IMG/VR virus record: IMGVR_UViG_3300020385_000069
Span: 1-22,242 of that record
From: a virus
Length of the DNA: 22,242 bases
Direction: 5' to 3' (one strand)
Each line of letters begins with the position of its first letter. Position 1 is the stretch's first letter. Made by a program: the position numbers and the translations under genes. Of the stretch, positions 3,546 to 12,426 are shown one piece after another. The notes beneath the pieces are model-generated. The model made no database searches. It was not told the origin of the DNA and saw nothing but the letters and a program-made list of their open reading frames with translations.

Positions 3546-4394
3546 TTATATTCCACAATAACCAGAATCGCATTCGTTAAAATCATCTTCAAACATATTG
3601 ACTTGTTTAAAGCTATTTCTTATCTGCTCGTATGTTACTCCGTTTTTAAAAGTTCTTATATTATATCCCGTTTCTTGTTCAGCATCTACAAACCAATTAA
3701 ACTTAATTGGGTGTTTATCACTCATCAATTTTAAAAGGACTTCGTTTCTGTGAAAACAACCAATGCAATTATTCATATACGCAAATCTTACTTCTTTACC
3801 TATCCAAAACTGTTCAACATTGTCTTTGTAGATATTATCATCTATAAGTGGAAATATAGGTTTTTGCCATCCTATTTCTGCCCACTTGTTTTGTGTTTTT
3901 CTTTTTCCAACAATTACTTTGTGTGTAAGCAATCCATCTTCATTTTGCCTTTCATACATTTTTTTTGCTCTACGTTGTTCGTTTGCTCTGTAACCTATTC
4001 TTGTTTCTATTGGTTTATTTATATTAGTTTGCCACCACTTAAAAATTGGGTTAAGTTTCATTTCTGTTGTGCAAAACCTTTGAGTTACATTAGGTAAATA
4101 TTTCTTGCCTTTTCTTAAAATAATTTCATCAAATGTTTTACCCGTTACCCAAGTTATTTTTCTACCTATGTATTGCTCTAAATCTAACATAGTGTAGATA
4201 ATCATATCATCTTCGGCAGTTGCAATAAATGGTGCTTGTATTCTATCCTCTACCTCTTGCCTTATCTTCTTATCAGAAAATTTAGATGCCTCGTGTTCGA
4301 TTCTTACAAGTGCAAACACATCGTAGTCAGCCGGATAATTAGCGGCAATATAAGATGATGTTTTGCCACCGCTTAAACTGTTTACTGTTTTCAT
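3546..4394 (-). CDS. PAPS reductase-like (adenine nucleotide alpha-hydrolase) protein
   Basis: This 282-residue protein opens with the PP-loop SGGKTSSY (8-15) that binds the adenylyl pyrophosphate in PAPS reductases and related N-type ATP pyrophosphatases. It continues with RFCTTEMK (106-113), an Arg-rich GYRANEQRRA (134-143), C210-x2-C213, and a C-terminal CDSGYC (275-280). The cysteines at 108, 210, 213, 275 and 280 could hold an Fe-S cluster or act in sulfur chemistry, but that is inference. Such genes are common in phages and islands, and relatives (DndC) take part in DNA phosphorothioation; no Dnd partners are visible here. It interrupts the terminase-portal pair, and its DNA is much more AT-rich than its neighbours (for example 13 G+C of 60 at 4081-4140 against 30 of 60 at 4681-4740), suggesting later acquisition. 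Substrate unknown. Confidence 0.85.
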   Translation of the reverse strand: MKTVNSLSGGKTSSYIAANYPADYDVFALVRIEHEASKFSDKKIRQEVEDRIQAPFIATAEDDMIIYTMLDLEQYIGRKITWVTGKTFDEIILRKGKKYLPNVTQRFCTTEMKLNPIFKWWQTNINKPIETRIGYRANEQRRAKKMYERQNEDGLLTHKVIVGKRKTQNKWAEIGWQKPIFPLIDDNIYKDNVEQFWIGKEVRFAYMNNCIGCFHRNEVLLKLMSDKHPIKFNWFVDAEQETGYNIRTFKNGVTYEQIRNSFKQVNMFEDDFNECDSGYCGI

Positions 4395-6119: not shown

Positions 6120-6321
6120 CCTTAAATTTTTTGTAAAGGTAAATATAAAATTCTTTCCACTTGGTGTCATATTCTTTTTTGGAATATGTTTTGCCGGATG
6201 TTTTGGGTTGTCCGTTTATCTCATAAACCAAAATATATTCCTTTCCTTGGGGTTTTGGATAACATCGGATGGAGTTACTTTCACACCAACGGAAAGCGTT
6301 GTAATATTCGTTTAAATTCAT
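6112..6321 (-). CDS. Small hypothetical protein
   Basis: A 69-residue, Lys/Tyr-rich protein of unknown function. Visible features are a Trp/Cys motif (FRWCESNSIRCYP, 10-22), a predicted beta-hairpin (EYILVYEINGQPKTSG, 28-43), and a basic aromatic helix at the end (WKEFYIYLYKKFK, 55-67). Its start ATG overlaps the methyltransferase stop by one base (6321), and its end overlaps the next small gene, so it is tightly embedded in the operon. The Tyr-rich, charged tail could bind nucleic acid, but nothing proves it. Confidence 0.65.
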   Translation of the reverse strand: MNLNEYYNAFRWCESNSIRCYPKPQGKEYILVYEINGQPKTSGKTYSKKEYDTKWKEFYIYLYKKFKDV

Positions 6322-6965
6322 TAAAATATTTCTAATTGATTTATATTTTCTTTTCTTATAATTCCCAAAGCGGTTTCTAATATTGTTTTACCAGCCTCAA
6401 AATCTACCAAGTTTCTGCCAATTTTAACTTTATTTTGTTTCCCTTTATATTTATTTAAATCAATGTTATGAAATTTAGATAAAATTTTAAGTTCGTTTTT
6501 TGTTTGTGATATTGCAATCCTTCTATCATTTAAATTATTTGGTAAGTTAAAATTTGTCCAATATAAATGCCTCCCTCTTTTATGAGCAATAATTAATGGT
6601 TCGTAATATGGAATAACATTTTCCACCACAAACTTACCCTTAAAATGATGTTTCAAAAAAAGTATTTCTTGATACAATTTCATATCAGGATAAACTGGAT
6701 TTTTTCCATTTGCACCTATTCCCCAAAACCTTGCTCTACTATGAGATGGACAAGGGGGCGATGTCCATATAAAATCAAACTCTTTATAGTGGTCTAATAA
6801 ATATTGATGTGCATCAGTAACAACAACTTTATCTTTTGGAAATCTTTCTTGATATAATCTTGCACATTCAGGGTCTAATTCAACGGCAGTAACCTCAACA
6901 TCAGTCACTTCATCCCATTTGTAACGGTTACCACCTAAACAAGCATATAAATTTAAAATTTTCAT
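6321..6965 (-). CDS. Cytosine-C5 DNA methyltransferase, compact
   Basis: A 214-residue protein with C5-methyltransferase motifs: motif I variant NLYACLGGNRYKW (5-17) for S-adenosylmethionine binding, VELDPE (28-33, motif II), DAHQYL (51-56), the catalytic SPPCPSHSRAR (69-79, C72, motif IV), FVVENV (112-117, motif VI) and RGRHLYWTN (130-138, motif VIII). It would methylate phage DNA, probably to evade host restriction. Standard enzymes are over 300 residues with a target recognition domain of about 80 or more between motifs VIII and IX; here only ~40 residues separate motif VIII from the possible motif IX/X region (GRNLVDFEAGKTILETALG, 183-201). The DNA is more AT-rich than the replication genes (12 G+C of 60 at 6481-6540). 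No cognate restriction enzyme is adjacent, so it is an orphan enzyme. Confidence 0.88.
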   Translation of the reverse strand: MKILNLYACLGGNRYKWDEVTDVEVTAVELDPECARLYQERFPKDKVVVTDAHQYLLDHYKEFDFIWTSPPCPSHSRARFWGIGANGKNPVYPDMKLYQEILFLKHHFKGKFVVENVIPYYEPLIIAHKRGRHLYWTNFNLPNNLNDRRIAISQTKNELKILSKFHNIDLNKYKGKQNKVKIGRNLVDFEAGKTILETALGIIRKENINQLEIF

Positions 6966-6967
6966 AA

Positions 6968-8641
6968 TTAAAAAGGTATTGTATCTTTTACTACTGTGAT
7001 TCTGTTTTTCTTTTCATCGATAGGTTTATACACCCCACCATTTTTAAAGTCCGGTGCCACGGTGAAATATCCTTGTTTTCCGTTTTCTTTTCTTTTTACT
7101 TTTTGGATATGTACTTGCACCGAATCGGATTCATACATTGTTCGTTCGCCGATTGACCGGTAAACCGTTAAGCAATTATAAGACTTATTGAAAAAGTCAG
7201 ATGACCCGGAAATGTCATAGGGGGTTGGTATTTTAAAAACACCATTGTCGGATTCCATTTTCCTTGGGTGGGCAACCAAAAAAAGGTGGGTGTTTGTCTG
7301 TTGTACGAATTGGGTAATCTCTGAAAGCACCCGACCAACGTATGAATGGTCTTTTTGTGCCGAATGGTCGAGCATATTCCACGGGTCTATTGTTAGAACG
7401 TTTACACCTTTTTGAAATACGAGTTCCCGGAATTTATCAAGTATTGATTTTAGGGTTAGATTTTCAAGGTCTATTTTCACAAAGTAAAAATGTTCTTCAA
7501 TAAAGTTTTTTGTACGATTCAGATCATCAGTTGTGCAATGCTTTTCATTTAGCTTATTTGCCAATCGTTTTATATGGCTTTCATAGGGAAAAGATTCCGG
7601 GGAAAAGTACGCCGTTCTAAATCCATATTTAAGTGCAAGATTGCAAGATATTTGATCTACAAAGTCCGATTTTCCTGAATTGGGTATTCCGGTAATGGTT
7701 GACCACTCCCCAAAAGCCATTTTAAACCACTCATCCGAGTCCGCAAGTTGAATTGAATAGTTGACTATCCCTTTTTCATTATAGTTGATTACATCTTGCC
7801 AAATGTCGTTGATGTTGATCACCCCTTCAAGTGGAAATGACTTGGTTTCTTTTAATATTGATCGTAATGTTTCTGCACCTTTTTCGGTTAGAACCTCATT
7901 GGCATCTTTGTAATCTCCAAAATCAACATATTTACAACGGAATTTTCCAAACCTCCTTGCGAGTTCATTTCTAAGTGATAACCCGGCATCATCGTTGTCG
8001 GTGCATAATACTATTTCCTTTTTTTCTGTAAAGTATTCAAAGCAGTTGTCGAGATATTCAAGGCGTTGATTTCCCTTTGATGCACCATTTGGAACACTAC
8101 AAACAGAATAAATGCCCGATTCCGATAATGACAATGCATCCATTTCGCCCTCGACAATGTAAATGGTGTCCATTTCTTTTATGTTGTCAATGCCGTAAAA
8201 TATCAGTTCGGCACCGCTAACCATTTTAAAATTCTTTTCGCCATCACGGAATTTAGTATTGATTAGTTCACCATTTCGGTAATAATTGAAATTAACCGCT
8301 TTTCTTCTTTTATCTACTTGGGGAAAGTATTCAATCGATTCGCCAATTTTCCAATGGGATAGAGTAGCGGTAGAAATACCTCTTTTGTTAAACCACCGAA
8401 TTGTTCGGTCAGATAGTTGAATTTTAGTTTCAACCGGTTTTATATATTCCTTTTTTGGTTTGAATTTTACGTTTCCAGACCAATTACAATGGTGGCAATT
8501 ATAAACACCCTTTTCAATATTTACCGACAAACAAGGGTCGGATTTATTTTTTCTTTTGTGAGAACATTTTGGACATTTTGTTTTTTGTACGTTGGCGTTG
8601 GATTTAAGTTCAATGCCAAGACTTAGAAATTCATCAATCAT
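6968..8641 (-). CDS. Bifunctional primase-helicase (T7 gp4/DnaG-DnaB type)
   Basis: A 557-residue replication protein with three parts in order. First is an N-terminal zinc ribbon with C23-x2-C26 and C49-x2-C52, used for template recognition in phage primases. Second is a Toprim domain: YIVEGEMDALS (161-171, E164) and VLCTDNDDAG (211-220, D215 and D217), the metal-binding residues of the catalytic site. Third is a RecA-type helicase: Walker A GIPNSGKSD (318-326), a segment AYFSPESFPYE (344-354), Walker B VNVLTIDPWN (413-422, D419) and LFLVAHPRK (453-461). This is the architecture of T7 gp4, which unwinds the fork and makes primers. It overlaps the upstream nuclease gene by 8 nt and ends 2 nt before the methyltransferase. 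Alternatives such as a Twinkle-like helicase with inactive primase are less likely, because the Zn ligands are all present. Confidence 0.93.
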   Translation of the reverse strand: MIDEFLSLGIELKSNANVQKTKCPKCSHKRKNKSDPCLSVNIEKGVYNCHHCNWSGNVKFKPKKEYIKPVETKIQLSDRTIRWFNKRGISTATLSHWKIGESIEYFPQVDKRRKAVNFNYYRNGELINTKFRDGEKNFKMVSGAELIFYGIDNIKEMDTIYIVEGEMDALSLSESGIYSVCSVPNGASKGNQRLEYLDNCFEYFTEKKEIVLCTDNDDAGLSLRNELARRFGKFRCKYVDFGDYKDANEVLTEKGAETLRSILKETKSFPLEGVININDIWQDVINYNEKGIVNYSIQLADSDEWFKMAFGEWSTITGIPNSGKSDFVDQISCNLALKYGFRTAYFSPESFPYESHIKRLANKLNEKHCTTDDLNRTKNFIEEHFYFVKIDLENLTLKSILDKFRELVFQKGVNVLTIDPWNMLDHSAQKDHSYVGRVLSEITQFVQQTNTHLFLVAHPRKMESDNGVFKIPTPYDISGSSDFFNKSYNCLTVYRSIGERTMYESDSVQVHIQKVKRKENGKQGYFTVAPDFKNGGVYKPIDEKKNRITVVKDTIPF

Positions 8642-9077
8642 TTAATTTAAGTTTTAATAAGTTTAGTTGGTGGTGAAAATTAATAATTTCTTTTCTTATT
8701 TTTATATCTGAATGGGGGAAATCTTTTGATGTTTGTTTATTCATTCTTATACGTTCAATTTTTCCCATTTCAAATATGTCATCAACCTTAAAAAGAAACC
8801 CATCATTTTTTACAACAATCAAAAGGTAAATTCTCAAGGGGTCTTTTGTTTTGTGTTTTAGTTTTCTAAGGTTGTCGATTTTTTGTTTTTCGATAAACCA
8901 TCGATCCCACATTTCAGATCGTTCTTTGATTTCGATTAATGTTTTTACATTGTTTGTATATCCATATAAATCAAAAGGCGAATACTCATCTTCAGACAAT
9001 TTAAAATCGCCATATTTTGAAAGGGCATCCAAGCACCTTTTTTCAGTTTGTTTTGTTTTGTTTTTATCGTAGTGCAT
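8634..9077 (-). CDS. PD-(D/E)XK nuclease, possibly resolvase-like
   Basis: A 147-residue protein with a likely PD-(D/E)XK core: SPFDLYGY (33-40, D36), a strand TLIEIKERS (46-54, E49-I-K51), and a following helix with WFIEKQKIDNL (60-70). This spacing of D, E and K is that of small restriction-like nucleases and archaeal-type Holliday junction resolvases. In a replication operon it could resolve branched DNA before packaging; that is inference. I start at the ATG at 9077 because GGAGGAAGGG, an unusually good Shine-Dalgarno for this genome, lies just upstream; the longer reading from 9095 would use a TTG codon inside that purine tract. It overlaps the upstream gene by 14 nt and the primase-helicase by 8 nt. 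Confidence 0.7.
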   Translation of the reverse strand: MHYDKNKTKQTEKRCLDALSKYGDFKLSEDEYSPFDLYGYTNNVKTLIEIKERSEMWDRWFIEKQKIDNLRKLKHKTKDPLRIYLLIVVKNDGFLFKVDDIFEMGKIERIRMNKQTSKDFPHSDIKIRKEIINFHHQLNLLKLKLND

Positions 9078-9756
9078 CAAATTCCCTTCCTCCAAGTTTT
9101 TGAATTAATTGTTCTAATTTTGGGAGTTTACCCTCTTTTGATTTTCTAAGGTCTTGAATACTTAAAACATTCTTTTGCCAAAATGAATCTTTTCTTGCCT
9201 TGCTAACTATCCACCAAAGTTGCCGTGGATTGCAATTATCTTTTTGATCTGCCAATCGGATTGTATCAAGCCACTTGATTTTTTGTGCCGTTGTTTTTGG
9301 TCTTGTTCTTTGAGGAAATAATTCAATTATGGCATCGTAACATTTAATATAGTTGTCCGCATAATCAGACACTTTTTTGCTTGTTTTTGATTTGCGGTTA
9401 TTTATATTTATATTATTATTACTATTTACTATACTATTATCCATTAACTTTTCTTTAATACCCCCTTTAAGTTTTCTTTGTGGGGGGTTTAAGAAAAGTT
9501 TACGGGTACTAATTTTGTTTTCATCCAATTCATATTGGGCATTCAAATACTTAAATTCAATGAGTTGATTTATCCATTTGGATATTGACACTTTTGACAC
9601 TTTATAAAGTTGAGCGAAATAATTATTGGTGGCAAAACAAAATCCTTTTTTATTGGACAAGGCAGTAATCTCACCATAAAGTAATTTGGCATTGGGGGTC
9701 AATCTCTCATCATACCGAACATCTGCCGGAATGATTGCATAATAGTTTGGTTTCAT
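9064..9756 (-). CDS. Helix-turn-helix replication protein (initiator or helicase loader)
   Basis: The N-terminal ~75 residues (YYAIIPADVRYDERLTPNAK, then LLYGEITALS and FATNNYFAQLYKVSKVSISKWINQLIEFKYL around 41-71) form the winged-helix domain common at the start of phage replication proteins and plasmid initiators (HTH_36/DnaD-like). An Asn-rich linker (107-120, NSNNNININN) leads to a helical C-terminal half with a basic and Trp-containing region (IKWLDTIRLADQK, 160-172; QLWWIVSKARKD, 179-190), which would contact the helicase. Such proteins bind the origin or load the replicative helicase, fitting its place two genes upstream of the primase-helicase. The DNA around the linker is a run of Asn/Ile codons of low complexity. 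Whether it is an initiator or a loader cannot be told from sequence alone. Confidence 0.78.
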   Translation of the reverse strand: MKPNYYAIIPADVRYDERLTPNAKLLYGEITALSNKKGFCFATNNYFAQLYKVSKVSISKWINQLIEFKYLNAQYELDENKISTRKLFLNPPQRKLKGGIKEKLMDNSIVNSNNNININNRKSKTSKKVSDYADNYIKCYDAIIELFPQRTRPKTTAQKIKWLDTIRLADQKDNCNPRQLWWIVSKARKDSFWQKNVLSIQDLRKSKEGKLPKLEQLIQKLGGREFDALR

Positions 9757-9757
9757 T

Positions 9758-10012
9758 TTAGTCCTCGGTTAAATCTTTAATTTGATTGCAAAATCCTCTT
9801 AGATCAACAAAAATATCTCGAAATTGTTTTAGTGTAATTTTTCGGTCATCGAATAGTTCAAAGAGTATTTCCAAAAACAATTCAAATTCTGCCTCAGTCA
9901 TTCTGCCAACATAATCATATCGTATGGAAATATCATCCATTGATGTATTGGTGCGCCAAACTCGTTGGTCAATCTCGTTCCAAAAAACGTTTTTAAATTC
10001 GTGAAAACTCAT
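9758..10012 (-). CDS. Hypothetical acidic protein
   Basis: An 84-residue acidic protein of unknown function. It is predicted to be mostly helical, with a hydrophobic/acidic helix FELFLEILFELFDD (43-56) that could be amphipathic, followed by ITLKQFRDIFVDLRGFCNQIKDL. It starts with an ATGA overlap with the 29-residue membrane peptide gene upstream and ends 1 nt before the HTH replication gene. The composition suggests a protein-protein interaction partner, possibly for the replication proteins, but I recognise no family. Confidence 0.65.
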   Translation of the reverse strand: MSFHEFKNVFWNEIDQRVWRTNTSMDDISIRYDYVGRMTEAEFELFLEILFELFDDRKITLKQFRDIFVDLRGFCNQIKDLTED

Positions 10013-10098
10013 TTACTAAACATTAAAATTAAAACTCCAATGCTCATAATTAAAGCATATACTCCACTAATATATTCAAATGATTCCAAAATACTCAT
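10009..10098 (-). CDS. 29-residue single-pass membrane microprotein
   Basis: A short reading frame beginning MSILESFEYISG and continuing through a hydrophobic segment (VYALIMSIGVLILMF, about residues 13-27) to FSK. The segment is long enough to span a membrane, with the basic residue at the C-terminal end. It fills the gap between two genes exactly: its start overlaps the end of the DnaA-like/nuclease gene by 23 nt, and its stop forms an ATGA overlap with the ATG of the 84-residue gene at 10012. This coupling is the main evidence that it is translated. Function unknown; a membrane-targeted phage peptide (for example superinfection-related) is only a guess. Confidence 0.5.
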   Translation of the reverse strand: MSILESFEYISGVYALIMSIGVLILMFSK

Positions 10099-10726
10099 CA
10101 ATTATTTGCTTACATTCATCAAAATCGTAAGAAACGACAGTTTTCCAATTCTTATTTTCAAGCGTTTTAAGACACTTTTGTTGGTTTTCGGTAGGTTTGT
10201 TTGGTTTGATCTTTAATTCGATTGCTAAGCCGTTAAAATTGCCCTTAGAATCAAAACAAAGAACATCCGGGACACCGGCAACCCCTCCGAGTTTTTTAAA
10301 CTTAAATCTTTCAAATGGTGTTCGTTTGCCCTCATTTGGACAATGGATCACAAATGCATCCGGATATTGCATCTTGAAATACTGCATCACGGCGTTTTGG
10401 AATTGATCCTCTTTGGTTAAATATTTATTAAAATTATTCGGCATAATATTTTTTTCTATTGATTCAAAATTTTCTTTTAGAAATGGGTCTTGGTTGTACT
10501 GAAAAATGTTCTCAATTGTTTTGATGCCGTGCATAACGGTAGCGTGATTTACTTTTACTTTTTCGCCAATTGCACTGTATGAGATAGGGCGAACGTGATC
10601 CCTTGACAATTTATAATAAATTGACCGGGCATCAATGAATTGCCTCAATCTTGTTTTTCTTCCGATGTCAAATCCAAAATAGTAATCGACTTCTTTTTTA
10701 ATAATTTCGGTTGTAAGTCTTTCCAT
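10076..10726 (-). CDS. DnaA domain IV-like DNA-binding domain fused to VRR-NUC nuclease
   Basis: A 216-residue two-domain protein. Residues 25-76 resemble domain IV of DnaA, the helix-turn-helix that binds DnaA boxes: RLRQFIDARSIYYKLSRDH (26-44), SYSAIGEKVKVNHATVMHGI (49-68); the NHATVMHGIKTI stretch parallels the DnaA signature DHSTV-hA-k-I. There is no AAA+ ATPase domain. Residues 105-210 look like a VRR-NUC nuclease of the PD-(D/E)XK superfamily: GGVAGVPDVLCFD (147-159, D154), LAIELKIK (167-174, E170 and K172), then Q182 in PTENQQKCLKTL and a terminal strand WKTVVSYD. VRR-NUC proteins act on structured DNA. The fusion could direct a nuclease to an origin or DnaA-box region. It lies between the exonuclease and the microprotein in the replication operon. 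Confidence 0.82.
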   Translation of the reverse strand: MERLTTEIIKKEVDYYFGFDIGRKTRLRQFIDARSIYYKLSRDHVRPISYSAIGEKVKVNHATVMHGIKTIENIFQYNQDPFLKENFESIEKNIMPNNFNKYLTKEDQFQNAVMQYFKMQYPDAFVIHCPNEGKRTPFERFKFKKLGGVAGVPDVLCFDSKGNFNGLAIELKIKPNKPTENQQKCLKTLENKNWKTVVSYDFDECKQIIDEYFGII

Positions 10727-10728
10727 AT

Positions 10729-11496
10729 TTATAAAATTAAAGAACCATCCTTTGCCATTTCACTTGTTCCATAGCCATTTGCGATTCCGGTCTGTAAATA
10801 TTCATTCCATTGTTCCAATGCGTTTTGGTAAGCCAAACGACCCTTGTCGATCATCTCATTGCTGAGTCCATAAACAACCACCGAAAACGGATGCTTGGTT
10901 TCTATTGCAATAAAACGAAATCTCTTTGGGTCGAATCCTAATGCATCGGAATAAAATGCCGCTTGTAGGTGATACCCATAATTGTAGATGTCCCTTATAA
11001 ACGCCCTTGGCGAATTATCTTGGCACGTTTTAATGTCGCTGATCCATCCATCCCCTTTTACATCCGGGCGAACACGAACCGGAACGCCGTTGTGAGTTCC
11101 ATAATGTGATAATTCAATATCACCTTTTGTGTAAAATATAGCCAAATCGTTTTGCATAAATCGGCGTTTTATACTTAAAATAATATTTCCCGGTTGTTCC
11201 TTGTCATTGCTTATGTATAAAAGTTCCTTCCCCTTGTGATCTTCTTGTTGCTCTTTTCTTTTTTTCATATACCCTTCCCCTCTTGGTATATAATCAACAA
11301 TGGCATATTTCTTATCAAATTCCTTTGGCTCAAGTAGTGCCTCGTGTACTGCCGTACCAAGTGCCAATGAATCACTCGAAAAAGGTCTTTGATTTAGAAA
11401 ATGATAAACCGATTTCTTGTGAATCGTTTTCAATCCCGATGCGGAGATTTCCGGTCGGGAATGATAGTTTTCATTTGAGTCCTTTTTAATTTTCAT
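10729..11496 (-). CDS. RecE-like PD-(D/E)XK exonuclease
   Basis: A 255-residue protein matching the C-terminal nuclease of RecE/exodeoxyribonuclease VIII-type proteins. Visible motifs are YHSRPEISASGLKTIHKKS (11-29), LALGTAVHEALLEP (44-57, with H51), VRVRPDV (139-146, D145), GWISDIKTCQD (150-160, D154-I-K156) and YHLQAAFYSDAL (175-186, Q178). D145, D154 and K156 would form the metal site. The enzyme would degrade one strand to give 3' single-stranded DNA for the annealing protein encoded at 12019-12426. I start at 11496 because this ATG forms an ATGA overlap with the coiled-coil gene stop and directly precedes the conserved N-terminal motif; a longer reading from 11568 lies inside the upstream gene. 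The gene ends 2 nt before the DnaA-like/nuclease gene. Confidence 0.88.
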   Translation of the reverse strand: MKIKKDSNENYHSRPEISASGLKTIHKKSVYHFLNQRPFSSDSLALGTAVHEALLEPKEFDKKYAIVDYIPRGEGYMKKRKEQQEDHKGKELLYISNDKEQPGNIILSIKRRFMQNDLAIFYTKGDIELSHYGTHNGVPVRVRPDVKGDGWISDIKTCQDNSPRAFIRDIYNYGYHLQAAFYSDALGFDPKRFRFIAIETKHPFSVVVYGLSNEMIDKGRLAYQNALEQWNEYLQTGIANGYGTSEMAKDGSLIL

Positions 11497-11684
11497 TTTT
11501 TTGATTGTAATACAATAATTTTGGTTTGTAGTTTTGCGTTCTCCGTTTTCCAATAGTCCACCCGGCATTCCAAGTTTTCTATTTTTTCGTTCTTGTCCTT
11601 GACTATATTTTCAAGGAATTTTATGCGTTCTTGCATAAATGTAATGTCCGATTCGGGGGTTTCATCAACTATAAAATGCATCAT
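11493..11684 (-). CDS. Small coiled-coil protein
   Basis: A 63-residue protein whose central and C-terminal parts form a predicted coiled coil: MQERIKFLENIVKDKNEKI followed by ENLECRVDYWKTENAKLQTKIIVLQ shows hydrophobic residues in heptad positions. The start is taken at the ATG at 11684 (a second ATG follows at 11681), because the reading further upstream would begin with GTG inside a terminator hairpin. The gene ends with an ATGA overlap with the exonuclease gene, so the two are probably translationally coupled. It may serve as an oligomeric partner of the exonuclease; no family recognised. Confidence 0.62.
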   Translation of the reverse strand: MMHFIVDETPESDITFMQERIKFLENIVKDKNEKIENLECRVDYWKTENAKLQTKIIVLQSKK

Positions 11685-12018: not shown

Positions 12019-12426
12019 TTAAAAAATATTAGTGTTAGAATTAAAATTTGATTTTGGTGTTTGGGGTTTGCTTTGGTTTATTTTAGCGTTGGCAATTTCA
12101 TCATAAGATGCAACCGATGCATCAATACCGATTCCTAAATTACCCAATGCCCTACCAACGGCAGATGTTTCACAATTTTCAACGTGGGATGTTTTATTGA
12201 TAAAACTACTCCCTTCTCTTTCCATTGCCATACCGGTGGACATAATTTTGCCATCAGCATCAATAACAATCGCTTTTATTATAATTGCCTTTTCATCACG
12301 ATAAATAATTTCCGTGTCCATACCCCAACCTCGATATTGTGATGCGGAACGAAAATGCTTTATTCTCGTGTTGACCTCGACATAATCTTTGCCTTGGATT
12401 TTTGTTGTTTTTAATTTTTGATTCAT
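12019..12426 (-). CDS. Single-strand annealing recombinase (ERF/Rad52-like)
   Basis: A 135-residue protein resembling phage single-strand annealing proteins of the ERF/Rad52-like type. It has KDYVEVNTRIKHF (13-25), a beta-rich core with AIIIKAIVIDADGKIMSTG (47-65), the motif ENCETSAVGRALGNLGIGID (83-102) and ASYDEIANAK (106-115), followed by a polar Ser/Asn/Gln tail (116-135). This ETSAVGRAL-type motif is characteristic of the group. Together with the SSB-like protein and the RecE-like exonuclease downstream it forms a complete phage recombination cassette for annealing 3' single strands during replication. Its ATG overlaps the upstream HTH gene stop as ATGA. The exact subfamily cannot be fixed from sequence reading alone. 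Confidence 0.8.
   Translation of the reverse strand: MNQKLKTTKIQGKDYVEVNTRIKHFRSASQYRGWGMDTEIIYRDEKAIIIKAIVIDADGKIMSTGMAMEREGSSFINKTSHVENCETSAVGRALGNLGIGIDASVASYDEIANAKINQSKPQTPKSNFNSNTNIF

Follow-up and report, generated by a model that had tools for sequence, protein, structure and literature searches.

A DnaA domain IV-like module fused to a VRR-NUC nuclease in the replication operon of a marine phage

Introduction

As stand-alone proteins, VRR-NUC nucleases form dimers, bind four-way junctions, and cleave them with an active site made of an E-PD-EXK signature plus a conserved Gln (PMC4103454). In DnaA, the residues that contact the DnaA box are R399, P423, D433, H434, T435, and H439 (PMC7561715); among these, D433, which touches position 7 of the box, shows high conservation across bacteria (PMC8235120). 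A DnaA-type DNA-binding domain is also known from a DNA-cutting enzyme: HUH TnpAREP proteins of subclass 2.1.2 carry a C-terminal Bac_DnaA_C domain, and their flanking repeats are unlike DnaA boxes (PMC6006769).

Here we describe a marine phage gene that joins a DnaA domain IV-like module to a VRR-NUC nuclease. Both parts are already well known as separate modules. A literature search of partial coverage returned no published description of such a fusion, its one co-mention hit being, to judge from title and abstract, about a type VI secretion system, and none of 50 697 annotated phage genome records reached 80% coverage with either of the two fused proteins used as queries; in cultured phages the two parts occur apart, annotated for example as “DnaA protein” or “VRR-NUC domain containing protein”. 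An unnamed viral protein in BFVD (A0A516L0Z0, 218 aa) aligns end to end with our structure model (41% identity), and the fusion thus appears to be present, unnamed, in public data.

A two-domain protein

The window, by which we mean the whole stretch of DNA analysed, is a virus record of 22 242 bases. The fusion gene and its modules are:

10076..10726, minus strand: DnaA domain IV-like/VRR-NUC fusion gene, 216 aa, stop included (ATG at 10726, stop at 10078–10076)
10445..10726, minus strand: DnaA domain IV-like module, N-terminal, residues 1–94 (Pfam match at 9–71)
10079..10444, minus strand: VRR-NUC (PD-(D/E)XK) module, residues 95–216 (active site E106, P153-D154, E170-x-K172, Q182)

Read for open frames, the plus strand across 10076–10726 contains many stops. 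The original prediction described the product as a DnaA-box-binding-type helix-turn-helix without an AAA+ domain, joined to a PD-(D/E)XK nuclease of the VRR-NUC family, and both halves were recovered in profile searches. Residues 9–71 match Bac_DnaA_C (PF08299) at E = 1.1e-8 and 35.4 bits, above the curated Pfam cut-off of 31.5 bits; a profile built from 32 relatives, all of which match Bac_DnaA_C, finds E. coli DnaA domain IV (1j1v) at E = 2.7e-13. For the nuclease half, the window protein alone matches VRR_NUC (PF08774) at residues 124–198 with 21.1 bits, slightly under the cut-off of 23.8 bits, and all 11 relatives scanned match this family (best 3.6e-8). The solved VRR-NUC structure 4qbl is matched by the window protein with phmmer (4.7e-8) and by the nuclease family profile (4.7e-14), and PHROG_824 matches at 2e-29. 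Profile and fold searches found only DnaA_C and VRR-NUC in the 216-aa protein and no AAA+ domain, and its TIGR00362 score is 33 bits against a cut-off of 344. The fusion protein, which is without the AAA+ ATPase domain III, is not a DnaA protein.

An AlphaFold2 model (55-row alignment) has a mean pLDDT of 94.6 and a pTM of 0.66, so that each domain is confident and their mutual placement and orientation are uncertain. Foldseek searches with this model return 4qbl for the nuclease half (TM by target 0.78, rmsd 2.1) and, for the DnaA-like half, the M. tuberculosis DnaA DNA-binding domain with DNA (3pvp, 0.86–0.87) and 1j1v (0.84). The two results singled out beforehand as decisive, a DnaA_C profile match and a nuclease core in the predicted structure, were thus both obtained. 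The protein is a VRR-NUC member by sequence, active site, and fold and resembles DnaA domain IV in sequence and fold, and chance is ruled out as an explanation of the two-domain assignment. Among near relatives, dN/dS is 0.07–0.28 in the DnaA-like half and 0.05–0.12 in the nuclease half; purifying selection acts on both halves in fused form.

Individual DNA-contacting positions were compared on the 1j1v alignment, with E. coli DnaA residue numbers by our own count:

10649..10651, minus strand: Arg26, equivalent to E. coli DnaA Arg399 (Arg in 108 of 110 phage domains)
10529..10549, minus strand: box-reading helix N60–H66 (NHATVMH), equivalent to DnaA D433–H439

On this alignment, R399, R407, K415, and P423 correspond to R26, R34, R42, and S51, and in the recognition helix D433, H434, T435, T436, and H439 correspond to N60, H61, A62, T63, and H66. 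The window protein therefore keeps R399, H434, and H439 of the published box contacts and changes three (P423 to S, D433 to N, and T435 to A). Across 110 phage DnaA-like domains, the H434 equivalent is kept in all, position 436 is always T or S, and H439 is kept in 99; position 435 is A in 99, and position 433 is occupied by N in 56 and by D in 47. The Flavobacteriaceae DnaA compared reads TRKRHIVQAR...KRDHATVLHA and has the HATVLH-type motif in common with the phage domain. Since this DnaA has A at 435 and D at 433, alanine at 435 is unremarkable in hosts of this kind, but the change of D433 to N is a departure.

In the nuclease half, E106, D154, E170, K172, and Q182 are invariant across 76 aligned relatives, save one row truncated before E106. 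Judged from these residues, the VRR-NUC active site of the window protein is intact.

Genomic context and likely function

The gene lies among the following neighbours:

12019..12426, minus strand: conserved phage protein PHROG_11717 (2.6e-39), with motif ETSAVGRALGNLGIG; a PHROG of unknown function
12016–11726, minus strand: small protein, between the PHROG_11717 and DUF3799 genes
10729..11568, minus strand: exonuclease VIII/RecE-like gene (Pfam DUF3799 2.9e-21; PHROG exonuclease VIII 1.4e-59)
9758..10012, minus strand: 84-aa acidic protein, downstream of the nuclease
9064..9756, minus strand: HTH_36 replication initiator/DnaD-like helicase loader (Pfam HTH_36 1.3e-13; PHROG_19658 6.8e-27)
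6968..8641, minus strand: primase-helicase, Toprim plus DnaB-like (PHROG_239 9e-89)

The order, which is kept in relatives, is PHROG_11717, small protein, DUF3799, fusion, 84-aa protein, HTH_36/DnaD-like gene, small ORF, and primase-helicase. The RecE-like gene is directly upstream, its stop lying 2 bases before the ATG of the fusion, and DUF3799 was found upstream of the nuclease or pair in 13 of 13 loci sampled. The replication setting originally proposed for the gene is borne out; its direct adjacency to a helicase loader-like gene (9756–9064) is not, because the 84-aa ORF (10012–9758) lies between them. That ORF has no family match in Pfam and PHROG profile searches, and similar ORFs are present in related loci (L153, L155, L158, L176, and L183). 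The operon position of the PHROG_11717 gene is occupied in L155 by an ERF-family annealing protein, which makes the PHROG_11717 product a candidate single-strand annealing protein.

Other features of the region were noted alongside. A 153-aa ORF (8634–9095, minus strand) has a weak pattern reminiscent of Hjc and of PD-(D/E)XK nucleases (EIKERSEMWDRW; Pfam Hjc E = 0.11), and its counterpart in L158 matches Hjc at 0.006 and NOV_C at 0.0025, both under cut-offs; from this pattern, it is possibly a second branched-DNA nuclease in the operon. The initiator-like gene (9064–9756, minus strand) contains an AT-rich low-complexity tract at about 9395–9450 beside an inverted repeat at 9428–9518, and its relatives also have Asn/Ile-rich runs. 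Together, tract and repeat resemble an origin lying within a gene, as in lambda O. Further downstream, a 214-aa ORF (6321–6965, minus strand) matches the N-terminal part only of C5-cytosine DNA methylases (2.2e-9), as a short or truncated methyltransferase, and a 282-aa ORF (3546–4394, minus strand) starts MKTVNSLSGGKTSSYIA and has a PP-loop/PAPS-reductase-like motif by eye.

Because a RecE-like exonuclease and replication genes surround the fusion, and stand-alone VRR-NUC enzymes cut four-way junctions, the protein is most naturally read as a nuclease of junctions or forks. We consider it probable, if not strongly so, that the protein is a phage endonuclease for branched DNA, most likely a VRR-NUC resolvase of Holliday junctions or replication branches that forms dimers and bears a duplex-DNA module derived from DnaA domain IV, within a recombination–replication module. 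It would cut branched DNA alongside the annealing candidate, the RecE-like exonuclease, the initiator, and the primase-helicase, and the nuclease may trim or resolve branched or concatemeric intermediates ahead of packaging. We infer junction cleavage by analogy with the solved VRR-NUC enzymes, and dimerisation would follow the same pattern. Anchoring is the simplest role for the DnaA-like domain, because most of its duplex-reading surface is kept: the equivalents of R399, R407, K415 (as R), H434, T436, and H439 are retained. The module would thereby keep the nuclease attached to duplex DNA, perhaps with a sequence preference. In many relatives the two parts are separate proteins made from adjoining genes.

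The fusion gave no match to PADLOC defence models, and a known anti-phage defence protein was rejected on that ground.

Distribution across related phages

IMG/VR relatives were confirmed for at least 407 DnaA-like and at least 534 nuclease loci. Scanning IMG/VR with the window protein gave 12 loci, nine of which carry the same full-length fusion at 85–97% identity; L012 is a contig-end fragment, and in L010 and L011 the pair is split, a different DnaA-like ORF overlapping the nuclease ORF. An assembly error as the source of the fusion was rejected, given the nine full-length near relatives on other contigs and the distant fused lineages.

The survey of phage databases that had been proposed was carried out with a nuclease-only alignment as query. 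Among the best 80 of at least 534 confirmed nuclease loci, 30 are fused, 38 are split, 9 are without a DnaA-like part, and 3 are cut by contig ends. In the split class, the DnaA-like ORF is immediately upstream or overlapping, by 73–115 bases in 12 cases. The pair is thus present in 68 of the 77 informative loci among these best 80, a share that may be biased upward among near relatives since the query alignment was built from pair-bearing loci. On a tree of 51 nucleases, from which near-duplicates had been removed and to which loci from the DnaA-side scan had been added (favouring pairs), the fused/split state changes about seven times by parsimony, and at least four changes are forced by strongly supported branches. 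The fusion is recurrent across several phage lineages. That these phages keep the two parts together, whether fused or in adjacent genes, suggests that the parts cooperate in recombination and replication.

The junction itself is marked by one codon:

10442..10444, minus strand: Met95 codon, start of the nuclease module; equivalent to the ATG of the separate nuclease gene (MPNNFNKYL) in L010/L011

This Met is kept in 6 of 16 fused representatives and gone in the other 10, so a free nuclease is not obviously made by fused phages. Between the window and L010, DNA identity stands at about 84% on either side and disappears from about 10649 to 10451, within the DnaA-like module and up to the junction, save one short 66-base match; the L010 DnaA-like protein is 53% identical to those of the split phages L120/L128 vs 38% to that of the window. 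Given that the flanks are so similar and that the module resembles that of another phage lineage, the DnaA-like module alone was exchanged as a unit in L010/L011, a contig pair belonging to the clade of the window, which argues against a finely co-adapted interface.

The DnaA-like part can also be missing. In L155 (2875–3366) and L160 (2887–3366), nuclease ORFs without the domain have an N-terminus that resembles the linker of fused relatives (FLLLKEICITKLNNLANPF); to judge by this resemblance, they likely lost the domain from a fused ancestor. Given these apparent losses and the 9 of the best 80 loci without the part, the nuclease can work without it. In L158 (734–1048), an unrelated 104-aa ORF occupies the DnaA-like slot, with a weak helix-turn-helix-like pattern (PapB 0.0026, under cut-off), which is only suggestive of displacement of the DnaA-like gene by another DNA-binding protein.

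A scan of bacterial genomes gave five nuclease loci, none fused, with a split pair in L185. L183 (labelled Gammaproteobacteria) and L185 (Woesearchaeota) share the phage module and look like misbinned phage DNA.

Stand-alone DnaA-like proteins and the regulator alternative

DnaA domain IV proteins also occur on their own. Eight loci (L030, L034, L038, L046, L077, L087, L092, and L096) encode stand-alone forms of ∼135–193 aa not far upstream of small and large terminase-like genes as judged by reading the sequences; many of these proteins have a tail that looks like a coiled coil. By the same reading, stand-alone genes often lie between a DUF3799-type exonuclease and terminase-like genes. Such proteins might be late-gene regulators.

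Other nuclease pairings were seen. In L032 (3276–4384) and L071 (3276–4381), the DnaA-like gene follows a 5′–3′ exonuclease-type gene with a 4-base overlap (PF02739 1.9e-12 in L032; by resemblance in L071). L040 (3474–3722) encodes an 82-aa VRR_NUC protein (6.5e-8), outside the nuclease family surveyed, two genes upstream of a stand-alone DnaA-like gene.

An alternative to the anchored resolvase is that the DnaA-like protein is an autonomous regulator, either a late-gene switch or a DnaA antagonist, merely co-transcribed with the resolvase, with fusions as neutral read-throughs. Stand-alone copies away from the nuclease family, often before terminase-like genes, fit an independent regulator: they stand just upstream of such genes (by reading) in several phages without the nuclease family, and the cultured Olleya phage Harreka_1 has its DnaA-like gene beside a methyltransferase. 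Module exchange occurs, and the genes overlap or nearly touch, so fusion would be easy. Neutral read-through sits poorly, however, with fusion in several lineages, with purifying selection on both halves when fused, with loss of the nuclease start Met in most fused representatives, and with the prevalence of the pair among the best informative nuclease loci. We therefore regard this alternative as unlikely.

Target sites

More doubtful again is a sequence-guided form of the junction nuclease, in which the DNA-binding domain of host DnaA, captured by marine Bacteroidota phages and repeatedly joined to a junction nuclease, would yield a structure-specific enzyme cutting branched DNA at chosen duplex sites, e.g. 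host oriC forks or phage replication starts.

The original prediction went further, to a nuclease directed at the origin of the phage or of its host, there to cut or nick: the DnaA-like domain would read DnaA boxes (TTATCCACA-type duplex) and the nuclease would block or cut host oriC or nick the phage origin. The gene does sit in a replication operon, most DnaA DNA-contact residues are kept along with a HATVLH-type motif as in Flavobacteriaceae DnaA, and in another DNA-cutting enzyme a DnaA-like domain was suggested as a means of targeting replication forks (PMC6006769). This model predicts DnaA boxes in the phage and is weakened because none are enriched. The box TTATNCACA is not above chance within the window, and 51 related loci contain 13 against 12.5 expected; 20 long related contigs show no obvious clusters, with 34 matches vs 22 in the reversed control by our sums, although these contigs are incomplete and may have a box cluster in a missing part. 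Canonical DnaA boxes were accordingly rejected as targets. Iteron clusters near the pair were rejected as well, the strongest local repeats being no denser than in order-3 Markov shuffles.

Further points tell against origin-directed cutting. The box-contacting D433 is Asn here and in 56 of the 110 phage domains; the operon already has its own initiator-like gene; the precedent of the HUH TnpAREP proteins involves flanking repeats unlike DnaA boxes (PMC6006769); and the VRR-NUC enzymes studied are branch-specific, the solved ones cutting Holliday junctions, rather than origin nickases (PMC4103454). The RecE-like neighbour and, in one relative, an ERF annealing-protein gene upstream likewise speak for another role. 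Origin-directed cutting through DnaA boxes is not supported, and we consider it improbable.

Programmed frameshifting, by which split phages with long overlaps would join the two ORFs into the same fusion by +1 slippage, is scarcely credible and was set aside: the nuclease frame is indeed +1 to that of the DnaA-like ORF in split representatives whose ORFs overlap by more than a few bases, but a permissive overlap frame would account for that bias, and the split nuclease ORFs have, immediately ahead of KYLxKED, a conserved ATG of their own, with the frame usually closing a few codons upstream.

Relation to known systems

The fusion links the box-reading end of DnaA to a nuclease of the Holliday-junction type, in a gene pair that is widespread among phages and recurs there, and it offers proteins with which the steering of junction resolution by phages can be tested. 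It also points to a role for those stand-alone phage “DnaA” proteins that carry an initiator annotation though they are without the ATPase. For one partner, the separate, overlapping, fused, and lost states form a natural series that is useful for studying gene fusion.

The closest relatives of the nuclease half are psNUC (4qbl), stNUC, and saNUC (PMC4103454), which have the fold, the E-PD-EXK plus Q active site, and the phage or bacterial context in common with the window protein. They consist of the VRR-NUC domain only, whereas in the phages a DnaA domain IV-like module is fused to that domain or encoded directly ahead of it. FAN1 resembles the window protein as a VRR-NUC nuclease with added DNA-binding regions, but is a monomeric 5′-flap nuclease in which a helical insertion blocks dimerisation (PMC4103454), and it is without a DnaA-like domain.

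On the DnaA side, domain IV (1j1v, 3pvp; PF08299) has in common with the phage domain the fold, the R399/R407/H434/T436/H439 set, and, in a Flavobacteriaceae DnaA, the HATVLH motif. The phage domain differs in coming without AAA+ or any other DnaA domain, in often having Asn at D433, in being fused to a nuclease, and in belonging to phages without box enrichment. Olleya phage Harreka_1 and Polaribacter phages P12002L/S (PMC4615864) are likewise marine Bacteroidota phages with stand-alone “DnaA protein” genes, the P12002 likeness being by annotation only; in Harreka_1 the DnaA-type gene is unfused, and its annotated neighbours include no VRR-NUC. The HUH TnpAREP 2.1.2 proteins offer the nearest parallel in design, combining a DnaA_C-type domain with a DNA-cutting enzyme and DNA repeats that are not canonical boxes, but their HUH single-strand nuclease is unrelated, their context is transposon-like, and their DnaA_C domain is at the C-terminus.
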